Positions 52,400 to 56,112 of a DNA stretch of 64,000 bases are shown one piece after another. The stretch spans positions 248,001 to 312,000 of the forward strand of contig CANLOY010000006.1 in NCBI GenBank assembly GCA_947493005.1. The letters run 5' to 3'. Each line of letters begins with the position of its first letter. Position 1 is the first letter of the stretch. The stretch is from an uncultured Roseivirga sp. (lineage in GTDB: Bacteria; Bacteroidota; Bacteroidia; Cytophagales; Cyclobacteriaceae). The position numbers were made by a program, and so were the translations under genes. The notes beneath the pieces are model-generated. The model did not search any database and had not been told where the DNA came from. It was given only the letters and a program-made list of their open reading frames with translations.

Positions 52400-52469
52400 T
52401 GATATGCCATTGAGCCCTTAAGATAGAACGCTACGCAATAGCATCATAGTAATCAAAAGGTTAAGAGTG

Positions 52470-52493
52470 TTTGTTGGTGACAACACCAACAAA
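52470..52493 (+). repeat. RAYT-associated palindrome 1 (forward)
   Basis: TTTGTTGGTG, ACAA loop, CACCAACAAA: a 10-bp stem. The outer base pair is T-A where other copies have C-G. It lies 16 nt before a small ORF. Confidence 0.85.
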
Positions 52494-52509
52494 GGAAGGA
52501 AATACAAAA

Positions 52510-52599
52510 ATGACAGAGTCCTTTAAGCTCGAACTTGAAGAGTTAAGATTACTAATATCCGAGGATGTCTTTGAGTTAATGATTAAGGTTCATCAATAA
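52510..52599 (+). CDS. Possible small protein of 29 residues between two palindromes
   Basis: An ATG-started frame encodes MTESFKLELEELRLLISEDV and nine more residues, ending before a TAA. The composition is amphipathic and helical. It starts 16 nt after palindrome 1 and ends 29 nt before palindrome 2. No family known; it could be a chance frame. Confidence 0.35.
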   Translation: MTESFKLELEELRLLISEDVFELMIKVHQ

Positions 52600-52628
52600 C
52601 ATTAAATAGGTTGCTCACTAAAGCCTCC

Positions 52629-52652
52629 CTTGTTGGTGTTGTCACCAACAAG
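52629..52652 (-). repeat. RAYT-associated palindrome 2 (reverse)
   Basis: CTTGTTGGTG, TTGT loop, CACCAACAAG. The loop is the complement of ACAA, which defines the reverse orientation. It lies 60 nt before RAYT A, as palindrome 5 does before RAYT B. Confidence 0.9.
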
Positions 52653-52712
52653 CTATATCTGTAGTTAAGCAGTTATCCTAAAAATCTTACAACATCAGTT
52701 TTAAATTGAAAC

Positions 52713-53240
52713 ATGCCTTTTCACCATGTTCAATTCTTCACCGCAACTATTCTTAAATGGATTCCAGTATTAAAGCGTGATGACTATAAACAAGTCATTG
52801 TAGATTCCTTAAAATTTCTGGTTGCACAAGAAAGGTGTGAAGTCTATGCATTTGTGATTATGCCTAACCACATTCACTTGATCTGGCAAATCAACCAGCA
52901 TCATAAAAGATCAGATGTTCAGCGGGATTTTCTGAAGTTCACAGGTCAACAGATTCGTTTTCGACTCAAGGATTATAACCCAAAGTTACTTTCTAAGTTT
53001 GAGGTAAGTTTAAAAGACAGAAAGTATCAGTTTTGGCAAAGAAACGCTTTATCTGTTGACTTACTTAGCAGAGAGATGATTGAGCAGAAGCTCGATTATA
53101 TTCATGCTAATCCTGTAACGAGAAATTGGAATTTGGTAGATGACTTTATCAAATATCATTACTCTTCTGCATCATTTTATGAAGACAACACAACTGAATT
53201 CACATTTCTAAAACACTACATGGAGTACTTTGGAGCATAA
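52713..53240 (+). CDS. REP-associated tyrosine transposase (RAYT), Y1 family, copy A
   Basis: The 175-residue protein belongs to the Y1/HUH transposases related to IS200. The HUH motif is H53-I-H55 in MPNHIHLIWQ. The likely catalytic tyrosine is Y129 in QKLDYIHANPV, a motif characteristic of RAYTs, and YHYSSASFYED follows. Both catalytic elements are intact, so nicking activity is plausible. RAYTs cut single-stranded DNA at their cognate palindromes, which flank this gene here. It shares 146 of 175 residues with copy B at 53893. Confidence 0.92.
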   Translation: MPFHHVQFFTATILKWIPVLKRDDYKQVIVDSLKFLVAQERCEVYAFVIMPNHIHLIWQINQHHKRSDVQRDFLKFTGQQIRFRLKDYNPKLLSKFEVSLKDRKYQFWQRNALSVDLLSREMIEQKLDYIHANPVTRNWNLVDDFIKYHYSSASFYEDNTTEFTFLKHYMEYFGA

Positions 53241-53248
53241 TCGTTATT

Positions 53249-53272
53249 CTTGTTGGTGACAACACCAACAAG
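53249..53272 (+). repeat. RAYT-associated palindrome 3 (forward)
   Basis: CTTGTTGGTG, ACAA loop, CACCAACAAG, a perfect 10-bp stem 8 nt after the RAYT A stop and 30 nt before the next ORF. Confidence 0.9.
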
Positions 53273-53302
53273 GGGGAAATTTAAATTCAATAAGAATAAA
53301 GA

Positions 53303-53494
53303 ATGTCTAACAAAAGAAAAGGTCAACTAACAACTGATGATGAATGGCGTAAGCATCTTCGGAAAGTTGGTAAGCGAATTTTCTGGAAGGGAGAACGCTT
53401 GGCGGAGAAGAAAGTGATTAACAAAGAAGTCAGACGATCAGAGCAACAAGAACTGCTTGTTGGTGGCAACACCAACAAGGGAGTGAATACTTGA
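53303..53494 (+). CDS. Small basic protein of unknown function, C-terminus encoded by a palindrome
   Basis: The 63 residues are strongly basic, with RKHLRKVGKRIFWKGERLAEK in two overlapping parts of the middle (key words: KRIFWKGERLAE). I do not recognise a named family. The last codons (LVGGNTNKGVNT) are read through palindrome 4, which therefore supplies the C-terminus and stop. The gene is bounded by two forward palindromes and has no counterpart in module B. Confidence 0.5.
   Translation: MSNKRKGQLTTDDEWRKHLRKVGKRIFWKGERLAEKKVINKEVRRSEQQELLVGGNTNKGVNT
53456..53479 (+). repeat. RAYT-associated palindrome 4 (forward, loop variant)
   Basis: CTTGTTGGTG, GCAA loop, CACCAACAAG. The loop differs by one base from the other forward copies. 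It overlaps the end of the small basic ORF and lies 39 nt before the membrane-protein gene. Confidence 0.9.
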
Positions 53495-53518
53495 TCCAGA
53501 CTTTAAACAATATTTGAG

Positions 53519-53788
53519 ATGTCAAAATCAATGAAATATAGACCTACGGTTTTAAACATTTTTTCAGTCATATTGATCATTTGGATTAACTATGATTTTT
53601 GGACTGACAACCCTGCAGCAGATGTAGAAGGGTGGGGTAAATTGGCATTATTGACATTTACTGGAGCTGGAATTTTAGGGCTTCTGATTGATCTCGGTCT
53701 TCAGTCTTTTTTAAAAAACTATAAGTTGGTAAACGCCATTGAGTTTTTTATAGTAGGTTCTTTATTGATTTACACATGGCTTAATTGA
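53519..53788 (+). CDS. Small membrane protein, paralog A
   Basis: The 89 residues have three hydrophobic segments: VLNIFSVILIIWINYDFW, LALLTFTGAGILGLLIDL and AIEFFIVGSLLIYTWL. ATG 53531 (MKYRPTVLNI) is the start that matches paralog B; the ATG at 53519 adds four residues. The first ten residues are the same in both paralogs, but the rest is diverged. Function unknown. It directly follows RAYT module A and palindrome 4. Confidence 0.65.
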   Translation: MSKSMKYRPTVLNIFSVILIIWINYDFWTDNPAADVEGWGKLALLTFTGAGILGLLIDLGLQSFLKNYKLVNAIEFFIVGSLLIYTWLN

Positions 53789-53808
53789 TTACCATTGTTT
53801 CTTCTCCC

Positions 53809-53832
53809 CTTGTTGGTGTTGTCACCAACAAG
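53809..53832 (-). repeat. RAYT-associated palindrome 5 (reverse)
   Basis: CTTGTTGGTG, TTGT loop, CACCAACAAG. Identical to palindrome 2, 60 nt before RAYT B. Confidence 0.9.
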
Positions 53833-53892
53833 CTATATCTGTAGTTAAGCAGTTATCCCAAAATTCTTACAGCATCAATTTTAAATTGAAAC

Positions 53893-54420
53893 ATGCCTTT
53901 TCACCATGTTCAATTCTTTACCGCTACTATTTTCAAATGGATTCCGGTACTTAGCCATGACTGTTACAAACGAATCATTATAGACTCTTTAAAGTTTCTT
54001 GTTGAACATGAGAGGTGTGAGGTCTACGCATTTGTGATTATGCCTAACCACATTCATCTGATTTGGCAAATCAACCAGCATTATGAAAGAGCCAATGTTC
54101 AGCGAGATTTCCTGAAGTTCACAAGTCAACAGATTCGATTCATGCTCAAGGATCAAAATTCAGAATTGCTTTCACGATTTGAAGTAAATCTAAAAGACAG
54201 AAGGCATCAATTTTGGCAAAGGAATCCTTTATCAGTTGACTTACTTAGCAGAGAGATGATTGAGCAGAAGCTCGATTATATTCATGCTAATCCGGTAACA
54301 GGCAACTGGAATTTAGCAGATGACTTTGCTGAATATCATTACTCCTCTGCATCATTCTATGAAGACAATAAAACTGAATTCACATTTCTCAAACACTATA
54401 TGGAGTACTTTAGAGCATAA
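53893..54420 (+). CDS. REP-associated tyrosine transposase (RAYT), Y1 family, copy B
   Basis: Paralog of copy A with 29 differences in 175 residues and no indels. H53-I-H55 and Y129 (QKLDYIHANPV) are conserved, so it too could be active. Differences cluster at residues 21-30, 64-69 and 84-105, outside the catalytic motifs. Two intact RAYTs side by side in one locus are uncommon, since RAYTs are usually described as single-copy domesticated genes. Confidence 0.92.
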   Translation: MPFHHVQFFTATIFKWIPVLSHDCYKRIIIDSLKFLVEHERCEVYAFVIMPNHIHLIWQINQHYERANVQRDFLKFTSQQIRFMLKDQNSELLSRFEVNLKDRRHQFWQRNPLSVDLLSREMIEQKLDYIHANPVTGNWNLADDFAEYHYSSASFYEDNKTEFTFLKHYMEYFRA

Positions 54421-54428
54421 TCGTTATT

Positions 54429-54452
54429 CTTGTTGGTGACAACACCAACAAG
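54429..54452 (+). repeat. RAYT-associated palindrome 6 (forward)
   Basis: CTTGTTGGTG, ACAA loop, CACCAACAAG. Its left flank matches that of palindrome 3, its right flank (GGAGTGAATA) matches that of palindrome 4. Confidence 0.9.
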
Positions 54453-54478
54453 GGAGTGAATAATACCAACGAGGGGAA

Positions 54479-54742
54479 ATGAAATACAGACCTACCGTTC
54501 TCAACATAGCTTCGGCAATAGTCATCTTATACTTTGCGATAGGTGCTATTATAGAAGAAACCAAACCTGATGCCCAAGGCTGGGGCTTCCTATTGATAAT
54601 TATCTTTGTCGTTCCAGGAATTATAGGGCTGGTAATTGATGGAGTTCTCCAAAAGTACATTAAGAGCTATTGGGTGATCAATGGAATTGAACTTGCAATT
54701 GTTGTGGTCTGGATATTAATTATGTCGCAAAGAGTTTATTAA
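54479..54742 (+). CDS. Small membrane protein, paralog B
   Basis: The 87 residues have three hydrophobic segments (ASAIVILYFAIGAII, FLLIIIFVVPGIIGLVI, GIELAIVVVWILIM). It starts MKYRPTVLNI like paralog A, and shares QGWG/EGWG and the GxxGLxID pattern. No function is known. It follows RAYT module B by 26 nt, repeating the RAYT-then-membrane-protein order of module A. Confidence 0.65.
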   Translation: MKYRPTVLNIASAIVILYFAIGAIIEETKPDAQGWGFLLIIIFVVPGIIGLVIDGVLQKYIKSYWVINGIELAIVVVWILIMSQRVY

Positions 54743-54753
54743 AAAATCTATTT

Positions 54754-54777
54754 CATGTTGGTGACAACACCAACAAG
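54754..54777 (+). repeat. RAYT-associated palindrome 7 (forward, imperfect)
   Basis: CATGTTGGTG, ACAA loop, CACCAACAAG: one mismatch in the stem. It lies 45 nt before the WYL-family regulator gene. Confidence 0.8.
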
Positions 54778-54822
54778 GGACTTAATACCGACAAAAGAAG
54801 AAAAACCTCACGTACATCAATT

Positions 54823-55518
54823 ATGAATCACCTTTCCAGGCTACTATCAATTTTAACTATACTCAAGTCAAAAAGGCTGATTACCGGGGCTGAGCTGGCC
54901 AAAAAATTTGATGTAAGCCTTAGAACGATTTACAGGGACATTAAAAAACTGGAAGAGTCTGGTGTTCCTATTATCACAGTTGAAGGAAGAGGCTACACCA
55001 TTATGGATGACTATATGGTAGCCCCTATCATGTTTGATGAAATGGAAGTTAATGCGCTAATCACTGCAGAGCAATTAATCGCCAAAACCAATGACGACTC
55101 TTTGATTCAGCACTTTGAGAGAACTCTACAAAAAATCAAGTCTGTTTTTAAGAGCAGCCTCCAATCAAAAGGCGAAATGCTGGACAGTAAAATGCGCGTT
55201 TTCAAGAGCCATGCTGATCCAACCAGAACTTCTTCTCTTTCCCACATGCAAATGGCCATCATCAATTTTAAAGTAGTTGAAATGACCTATCAAGCTAAGG
55301 GTAAAGAAACAACCTGGAGAAAGATAGAGCCTTTAGCAATTTATAGCTTCAATGAAAAATGGATTGTCTTAGGCTGGTGTCATTTAAGAAAGGACTATAG
55401 AGCCTTTCGACTAGACAGAATAAAAAATTTTCAAATCTTAGACGAGCTATTTGAAGACAGGCATTTTGACTTAGCTCAATATTTTGTTCGCTGTTCAGAA
55501 ATTGATTACAACCCCTGA
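54823..55518 (+). CDS. WYL-domain transcriptional regulator (YafY family)
   Basis: The N-terminal helix-turn-helix (GAELAKKFDVSLRTIYRDIKK) is followed by the GVPIITVEGRGYTI wing and, from about residue 140, a WYL domain with EPLAIYSFNEKWIVLGWCHLRKDYRAFRLDRI. Such regulators often respond to ligands bound by the WYL domain or to DNA fragments. A SnoaL-like protein is encoded 59 nt downstream and is the likely partner or target. The forward palindrome 7 sits in the leader. Confidence 0.9.
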   Translation: MNHLSRLLSILTILKSKRLITGAELAKKFDVSLRTIYRDIKKLEESGVPIITVEGRGYTIMDDYMVAPIMFDEMEVNALITAEQLIAKTNDDSLIQHFERTLQKIKSVFKSSLQSKGEMLDSKMRVFKSHADPTRTSSLSHMQMAIINFKVVEMTYQAKGKETTWRKIEPLAIYSFNEKWIVLGWCHLRKDYRAFRLDRIKNFQILDELFEDRHFDLAQYFVRCSEIDYNP

Positions 55519-55577
55519 CATATAATGTCACAAGCTTCATCTATGTTTGTGTTATTACAAAACAAAAAACATCACTT

Positions 55578-55946
55578 ATGACAACACAAGAAATTGCAAA
55601 CAAATGGGCAGAGTACTGCCGCACAGGTCAAATGGATAGAGCACAGGAAGAGCTATACAGTGACGATTGCATCAGCCTTGAAATGGAAGGTGCACAGGGA
55701 TTTCCGCAAAGAGTAGAGGGCATAAAAGCCATCGTTGAAAAAGGCAAGCTATGGGAAGGAATGGTTGAAGAGTTTCATGGCTTAGAAATCGAAGGACCAA
55801 TAGTAGCAGGTAATCACTTCACAGCTACTATGAAAATGGATATCACCATGAAAGGTCAGCCTAGAAGAAATGATGAGGAGATTGCTCTGTTCAGAGTTGA
55901 AAATGGGAAGATTGTTTCCGAACAGTTCTTTTACTCAGTGGACTAA
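55578..55946 (+). CDS. SnoaL-like (NTF2-fold) protein
   Basis: The 122 residues fit the small NTF2-like fold: TQEIANKWAEYCRTGQMDRAQEELY, then FPQRVEGIKAIVEKGKLW, GNHFTATMKMDIT and a last strand IALFRVENGKIVSEQFFY. Members are ligand-binding or isomerase-like; no catalytic residues can be assigned. Pairing with a YafY/WYL regulator is common in Bacteroidota, so expression is probably controlled by it. Confidence 0.85.
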   Translation: MTTQEIANKWAEYCRTGQMDRAQEELYSDDCISLEMEGAQGFPQRVEGIKAIVEKGKLWEGMVEEFHGLEIEGPIVAGNHFTATMKMDITMKGQPRRNDEEIALFRVENGKIVSEQFFYSVD

Positions 55947-55960
55947 CCACTTTTTACTAC

Positions 55961-55996
55961 TTCCTTCTTGTTGGTGTTGTTCTCAACAAGAAGGAA
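55961..55996 (-). repeat. RAYT-associated palindrome 8 (reverse, degenerate, extended stem)
   Basis: The core reads CTTGTTGGTG, TTGT, TCTCAACAAG: the inner right arm is changed, but the outer stem is extended (TTCCTTCTTGTTG with CAACAAGAAGGAA, 13 bp). It lies 14 nt after the SnoaL-like stop and could now work as a transcript hairpin. Confidence 0.7.
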
Positions 55997-56057
55997 ACTT
56001 ATTAATCAACAGCTTCATCCATCCTTCAAACATCTGCTCAAGGAAGAAGTATCACTT

Positions 56058-56087
56058 GGAGACTGCTTCGCTTTCGCTGGCAGTGAC
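56058..56087 (+). repeat. Dispersed REP-like repeat, GGAGACTGCTTCGCT family (copy 2)
   Basis: GGAGACTGCTTCGCT, TTCGCTGG, CAGTGAC, same orientation as the copy at 50889-50917. It lies just after the pyruvate carboxylase gene and marks the far edge of the accessory zone. Confidence 0.75.
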
Positions 56088-56112
56088 GGCACAAAGCAAC
56101 CTCCGGTTAGAA

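Follow-up and report, generated by a model that had tools for sequence, protein, structure and literature searches.

Two RAYT genes amid a cluster of palindromes in an uncultured Roseivirga: a locus most like Bacteroidota REP/RAYT systems

Genes for REP-associated tyrosine transposases (RAYTs) are described as flanked by two inverted repetitive extragenic palindromes (REPs), of which a genome usually holds more than 100 copies (PMC2817692); RAYT-like genes with flanking inverted repeats of other kinds have also been described (PMC3733652). The Bacteroidetes contribute subclass 2.6 (RAYT group 5), with atypical hairpins that do not have GT[AG]G and have copies elsewhere, and with an insertion of roughly 21 residues that separates helix C of the protein from strand 4 (PMC6006769). 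In the Marinomonas REPtrons Ma and Mb, REPs are concentrated near the RAYT gene, which was read as recent arrival followed by local multiplication, and a guide scheme has been proposed in which GTAG selects CT and GTGG selects CC (PMC8266576). Here we analyse a 64-kb window (the whole stretch of DNA from an uncultured Roseivirga sp.), in which two RAYT genes lie within a cluster of eight 24-nt palindromes. The pairing of these genes with cognate palindromes is supported by the fold, the sequence motifs, the inverted flanks, the pairs resembling REP doublets forming hairpins (REPINs), and the presence of other hairpins at the genome's other RAYTs. Taken as a whole, the stretch is very probably a Bacteroidota-type REP/RAYT locus, whose RAYTs would act on the hairpins and whose module was duplicated long ago, with both genes kept.

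Among the described systems, the locus is most like subclass 2.6. Both window RAYTs share the NH[LIV]H and WQ motifs of that subclass (as NHIH and FWQ), and their flanking hairpins likewise have copies in the genome but no GT[AG]G (PMC6006769). The motif around the tyrosine differs, being YIHANP where the published consensus, which is not a rule, gives YIH[QN]NP (PMC6006769). Our comparisons with related loci use the best 80 of 297 confirmed ones, so that the sample leans towards close relatives, and the alignment omits nine of the 80 whose matched stretch contains a stop. Among 71 relatives, NHIH is found in 69, FWE (30) outnumbers FWQ (17) at the WQ position, and YIHNNP occurs in 28, YIHANP in nine and YIHQNP in two, most others differing at the same place. 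Compared with Escherichia coli TnpAREP, the family has some 20 additional positions ahead of the WQ motif, which may be a further likeness to subclass 2.6: between the two stretches that align with the TnpAREP structure (4er8) there are 43 family-profile positions against 23 residues in 4er8, a count that rests on the aligned stretches and not on a residue-level mapping of helix C. A further difference from subclass 2.6, as far as its description was covered, is that the window has two copies of the module with one REP type; for the tag, the same description offers no consensus.

The remaining comparisons are more distant. E. coli TnpAREP is the best fold match and shares the inverted REP pairs at the gene and a hairpin with a 5' tag; here, however, the tag ends in CC (GCC or CCC) rather than being GTAG, the stem is short and perfect, and there are at least 38 REP places. 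In E. coli, REP copies number in the hundreds. Members of the IS200/IS605 family (IS608, ISDra2) share the Y1 HUH fold and the hairpins at the ends, but the genome examined here has no near-identical transposase copies and the same hairpin stands inverted at both ends. The Marinomonas REPtrons are similar in that REPs are concentrated near the RAYT gene, and different in that they belong to groups 2 and 3 and carry GTAG (PMC8266576), whereas the window's RAYT copies are old by their synonymous divergence. A reading of the window made earlier from its sequence alone (hereafter the sequence-only reading) did not recognise the palindrome as a described REP family. This stands in so far as a search of the literature by topic and by arm letters, supplementary tables aside, found no published naming of this hairpin and its sequence was not found in print; given that limit, the tag may already be published, and hairpins from Bacteroidetes that do not have GT[AG]G have been described in any case (subclass 2.6, PMC6006769).

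The palindrome cluster and its two RAYT modules

The pattern CTTGTTGGTG-N4-CACCAACAAG, allowing at most three mismatches, has eight matches in the window, all within positions 52470-55990 (Table 1), and none in 100 shuffles. This bears out the sequence-only reading, which had counted eight palindromes in 3.5 kb and seen none elsewhere in the window, the latter being right at three mismatches. Both 10-nt arms are exact in five of the eight palindromes (52629, 53249, 53456, 53809 and 54429). At 52470 the base of the stem is T/A instead of C/G with pairing kept, at 54754 there is a single arm mismatch, and the palindrome at 55967, with three mismatches, is a degenerate derivative that scores 30.4 bits with a REP covariance model of whose building set it is itself a part. 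The loop, previously given as ACAA or its complement TTGT, is so in most copies, the exceptions being 53456 (GCAA) and the degenerate 55967.

Table 1. Features of the palindrome cluster and its genes, in window positions
Feature	Positions	Strand	Basis and remarks
REP palindrome P1	52470..52493	-	pattern match; tag CC on minus strand, right side
REP palindrome P2	52629..52652	+	pattern match; left end of module A, tag CC at left
REP palindrome P3	53249..53272	-	pattern match; right end of module A, GG at right
REP palindrome P4	53456..53479	-	pattern match; GCAA loop; overlaps 3' end of 63-aa ORF
REP palindrome P5	53809..53832	+	pattern match; left end of module B
REP palindrome P6	54429..54452	-	pattern match; right end of module B
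REP palindrome P7	54754..54777	-	pattern match, one arm mismatch
Degenerate palindrome P8	55967..55990	+	three mismatches; between convergent gene ends; terminator-like stem and tail
Module A, RAYT gene within inverted palindrome pair	52627..53274	+	648-bp homology with module B
Module B, second RAYT gene within inverted palindrome pair	53807..54454	+	648-bp homology with module A
RAYT-A, Y1 HUH transposase-like protein, 175 aa	52713..53240	+	Pfam Y1_Tnp; predicted fold
RAYT-B, 175 aa, 83% identical to RAYT-A	53893..54420	+	Pfam Y1_Tnp; motifs
63-aa ORF	53303..53494	+	between modules; first 41-51 residues match ORFs elsewhere
Small hydrophobic ORF, 89 aa	53519..53788	+	older paralogue of 54479-54742, 45% aa identity
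Small hydrophobic ORF, 87 aa	54479..54742	+	paralogue of 53519-53788
aa, amino acids; ORF, open reading frame.

The pairs P2/P3 and P5/P6 each bound a module of 644 bp from palindrome to palindrome, as had been claimed, and the modules are 86.7% identical across 648 bp, the homology ending two nucleotides outside the palindromes on both sides. The claim that each holds an intact Y1 RAYT gene with its HIH motif and Y129 is equally well founded: both reading frames of 175 amino acids are intact, with NHIH from residue 52 and Y129IHANP in each. The AlphaFold2 model of RAYT-A has a pLDDT (predicted local distance difference test) of 95.3, and its top solved structure by Foldseek is 4er8, E. coli TnpAREP with a REP hairpin (E-value 2.4e-07), which is also the sole match at E <= 0.01 in a sequence search of the PDB (1.2e-04). 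Among 73 aligned sequences, the invariant columns include W16, N52, H53, W108, K126, Y129, H131 and N133, and H55 is conserved in at least 90%. The closest named relative among the best 80 loci is from Roseivirga ehrenbergii (71%). In the noncoding leader from the palindrome to the RAYT start (52653-52712 in module A), likeness between the modules seems far above that at the silent sites of the genes, which suggests that the leader may be under constraint.

If the palindromes were instead transcription terminators or host regulatory hairpins unrelated to RAYTs, one would expect them to be intergenic, as many are, some of them between convergent gene ends. A terminator scan of 52400-56100 picks out four terminator-like sites, where shuffles yield 2.2, and these include P8 as well as P4 (minus strand); the other six of the eight palindromes are not called, however, and inverted pairs with tags outward, an association with RAYTs and a conserved tag are all unexpected of terminators. 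We regard this explanation as highly improbable for the set, and P8 individually may serve as a terminator for two convergent genes. Elsewhere, five T lie no more than 10 nt from the stem of one REP (L023:3355).

Hairpins and their tag across the genome and at related loci

The genome examined comprises 4.88 Mb in 24 contigs, and the search of it for further palindromes that had been proposed does find them: at three mismatches or fewer the pattern occurs in 41 places, compared with four for a reversed control pattern. A covariance model built from 34 copies gives at least 38 distinct REP places (E <= 0.2), of which 30 lie beyond the cluster in the window. This figure is a lower bound, as 150 of 2868 first-look candidates were scored; strands were merged manually, and 34 of the 38 places are model-building copies by construction. 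Stem pairing is kept across copies (92.5% of cells paired versus 88.1% in shuffles), with double changes in 18 stem cells versus 5.9 in shuffles, among copies that were selected for palindrome likeness, and the 34 copies carry nCC or near-nCC directly before the stem. Neighbouring REPs within 150 nt form 12 pairs, all outside the window; 11 of these have the close, inverted, tag-outward arrangement that characterises a REPIN, with a spacing of 35-42 nt in nine, and one is in the same direction. The REPIN-like layout runs from one 24-nt hairpin across a short spacer to a second, inverted one, and in ten mapped stretches it is mostly intergenic. One 4-kb stretch of the genome (L020, C3:500815-504781) holds four REPINs, two of which are near-identical, with the same spacer and nearly identical right flanks, likely as a result of local duplication.

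An inverted hairpin pair (at least 16/20 identity) is also a common feature of related RAYT loci. Such a pair was found at 52 of the 77 loci whose flanks could be scored (three of the 80 were dropped for too short a flank) and in 1/76, 1/76, 0/73 and 1/69 of the control stretches; with other loop limits, 59 of 84 loci have one, the window's two and two relatives having been added. Of 104 hairpins, 65 have GCC as the tag at the foot, a count that rises to 81 when CCC is allowed as well, the chance of GCC within 7 nt of the same flanks being 4.8% (the loci are related and not independent). The 5' GT[AG]G tag of canonical REPs appears in one of the 104, and the REP described here is accordingly not of the canonical GTAG kind. 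The core of the hairpin changes along with the RAYT: TGTTGGTG occurs at 26 of the 52 loci, TGTTGGTC and GGTTCGTG at four each, and others at fewer. Hairpin distance tracks RAYT distance (Mantel r 0.53, reached in 0 of 5000 permutations) across 45 loci, with host kinship uncorrected and seven of the 52 left out for want of an aligned row. Individual cases can be followed more closely. For instance, the genome's own distant RAYTs on contigs C1 and C11 (34-36% identical) have flanking hairpins of different sequence. Similarly, in a case that controls for the host, what we call the b-lineage RAYT of R. ehrenbergii and R. echinicomitans occupies a syntenic site, is 95% identical and has the same hairpin in both (L040, L043), whereas the a-lineage RAYT of R. 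ehrenbergii (L033) has a different hairpin upstream. The separate hairpin families at the two further RAYTs of our genome, L030 (C1:352938) and L031 (C11:39278), lie around AGTCCGCACT and AAGTGTAGTT, respectively.

Several observations weigh against a REP/RAYT system. Both RAYTs match the NCBIfam family REP_Tyr_transpos (NF047646) over profile positions 11-146 of 146 but score 76.9 and 75.8 bits, under its equivalog cut-off of 80 bits, which is a naming threshold and no biological definition. A near-identical RAYT copy was sought in the genome and none was found among the four homologues, the closest pair being 83% identical in amino acids. The REP places, at least 38, fall under the more than 100 that are usual per genome (PMC2817692), and 25 of the 77 scored RAYT loci are without an inverted hairpin pair. 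Finally, palindromes are also present in same-genus genomes that do not have this type of RAYT, which counts against the sequence-only reading: five or more palindromes at two mismatches or fewer occur in six of seven same-genus genomes with the RAYT type, but also in four of 11 without it (one-sided p 0.057), which makes the genome-level link weak. Because the pattern has a fixed 4-nt loop, hairpins whose loop is 5 nt long, like those beside L038, escape it.

Age of the duplication and turnover of the locus

The two RAYT genes differ at synonymous sites with a dS of 0.72 (substitutions per synonymous site), at nonsynonymous sites with a dN of 0.089, and have a dN/dS of 0.12; the copies are therefore old and constrained, the duplication is not recent, and, judging by these ratios, both genes are under purifying selection. 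The suggestion that the element is still moving or recently expanding is accordingly not supported. The accompanying remark that RAYTs are usually single-copy is fair per REP type in what we covered of PMC6006769, which makes the window pair somewhat unusual; a second RAYT stretch or remnant lies near the main gene at six of the 80 related loci, and also in the relatives G002 and G014.

How the second copy arose is a separate matter. One route, to which we would give about an even chance, needs no transposition: ordinary recombination between the 24-bp palindromes would have produced a tandem duplication, and gene conversion would have acted on the copies afterwards. It would fit two copies that are close together and in the same direction, the second RAYT stretches and remnants near main genes just mentioned, and the adjacent small open reading frames, which are also paralogues, so that the area may duplicate repeatedly. 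From position 53055, moreover, the RAYT copies share an identical run of 59 nt that covers the catalytic tyrosine Y129, which, at a dS of 0.72, is consistent with gene conversion or local constraint. On the other hand, the small reading frames (45% identical in amino acids) look much older than the modules (86.7% in DNA), so that one event does not account for both.

A second route, in which the palindrome-RAYT-palindrome module is a mobile unit resembling an insertion sequence, with REPINs as its short derivatives and the second copy arising by a jump, is possible but in our view doubtful. The ends of module homology, which lie 2 nt beyond each palindrome and border on unrelated flanks, seem to favour it, as do four module pairs in other genomes that are 83-88% identical and have no shared flanks. 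However, the syntenic pairs L066/L083 (-2/+7) and L046/L049 (-4/+7, +8) have the same homology ends, so these ends do not discriminate a jump from inheritance, and we rejected them as proof of transposition because vertically inherited, syntenic pairs, which served as the control, end alike. Moreover, among 96 pairs at different sites the homology ends at the hairpin foot in 29 cases on the left and 32 on the right, inside the module in 64 and 61, and beyond it in three and three.

Comparison of related genomes bears on the same question, and shows that the cluster layout is not conserved in them, which, like the further palindromes elsewhere in the genome, counts in favour of the sequence-only reading. 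The a-lineage RAYT occurs in six genomes of the genus (the window's, G002, G004, G005, G012 and G014), and none of the 15 pairwise comparisons between them shows another shared open reading frame nearby, as a mobile unit would predict. These covered 19-20-kb stretches (in G014 reaching only some 2.6 kb past the RAYT at one end) and reading frames of at least 90 amino acids at 45% identity or more. Against a mobile unit, related RAYTs are syntenic, with shared flanks, in the close species pairs G004b/G014b and G008/G010. The presence of the a-lineage RAYT at unrelated sites leads us to favour its horizontal arrival or relocation, whatever the manner. In G013, the neighbouring CRP-like, WYL and SnoaL genes are kept (84-88% identical) and the RAYT and palindromes between them are absent, which would again suit a mobile unit, but the interval between the CRP-like and WYL genes is filled with other genes. 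G002 keeps the WYL-SnoaL pair but has no cluster, and the stretch compared contains no CRP match; a clean empty site, sought in these relatives, was not found in either. The CRP-like-to-WYL interval (52421-54823 in the window, 8380-11001 in L162 of G013) is a variable site of differing gene content, and a motif, CCCCTGACATAATATGTCATAT, lies upstream of WYL in G013 and G002 and is missing at that place in the window.

The reading that we prefer, a Bacteroidota-type REP/RAYT locus with an old duplication, suggests a mechanism by analogy with TnpAREP and the IS200/IS605 family. The RAYTs would be single-strand endonucleases of the Y1 HUH type. Each would bind the 24-nt hairpin of one strand, take its guide from the CC-ending tag at the 5' foot of that hairpin, and break and rejoin single-stranded DNA at sites that have hairpins beside them, so that short REP pairs could spread in trans. 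Following the published guide scheme, we would guess that the target of the tag is a GG dinucleotide. The second copy would stem from a duplication, long ago, of the entire module from one palindrome to the other, both genes presumably having been kept working by selection since then. The kind of system is thus ordinary and well confirmed; its tag is less studied, and its doubled gene is of some age. A bolder proposal, which we consider unlikely, is that a RAYT clade across Bacteroidota and Ignavibacteria reads a GCC/CCC tag rather than GTAG and that the whole module still moves as a unit. If true, this would provide a living link from insertion sequences to domesticated REP systems. Bench-studied RAYTs, in the parts of the literature covered, act with GTAG-tagged hairpins, and a large GCC/CCC-tagged set from these two groups would make the guide rule testable where a different cut is predicted. 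Likewise, the turnover of the locus between species bears on whether RAYT modules move by themselves.

Small open reading frames and a related cluster

The reading frames that lie beside the modules have a sparse distribution. Relatives of the 63-aa ORF occur in seven of 241 genomes, our own included, and six of their loci (about 2-3 kb) are without such palindromes; relatives of the hydrophobic ORFs likewise occur in seven of the 241, again including our own, and the examined loci (about 2-3 kb) do not have these palindromes either. We accordingly rejected an integron-like or passenger-cassette array, an idea prompted by the position of the small ORFs between palindromes, and read the small ORFs as bystanders, the 63-aa ORF being, on sequence comparison, probably a bystander gene. 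A local palindrome cluster larger than that of the window lies in G014, where a 15-kb stretch (L141, C7:52306-67617) holds twelve palindromes, with one RAYT and the remnant of a RAYT C-terminus in their midst.

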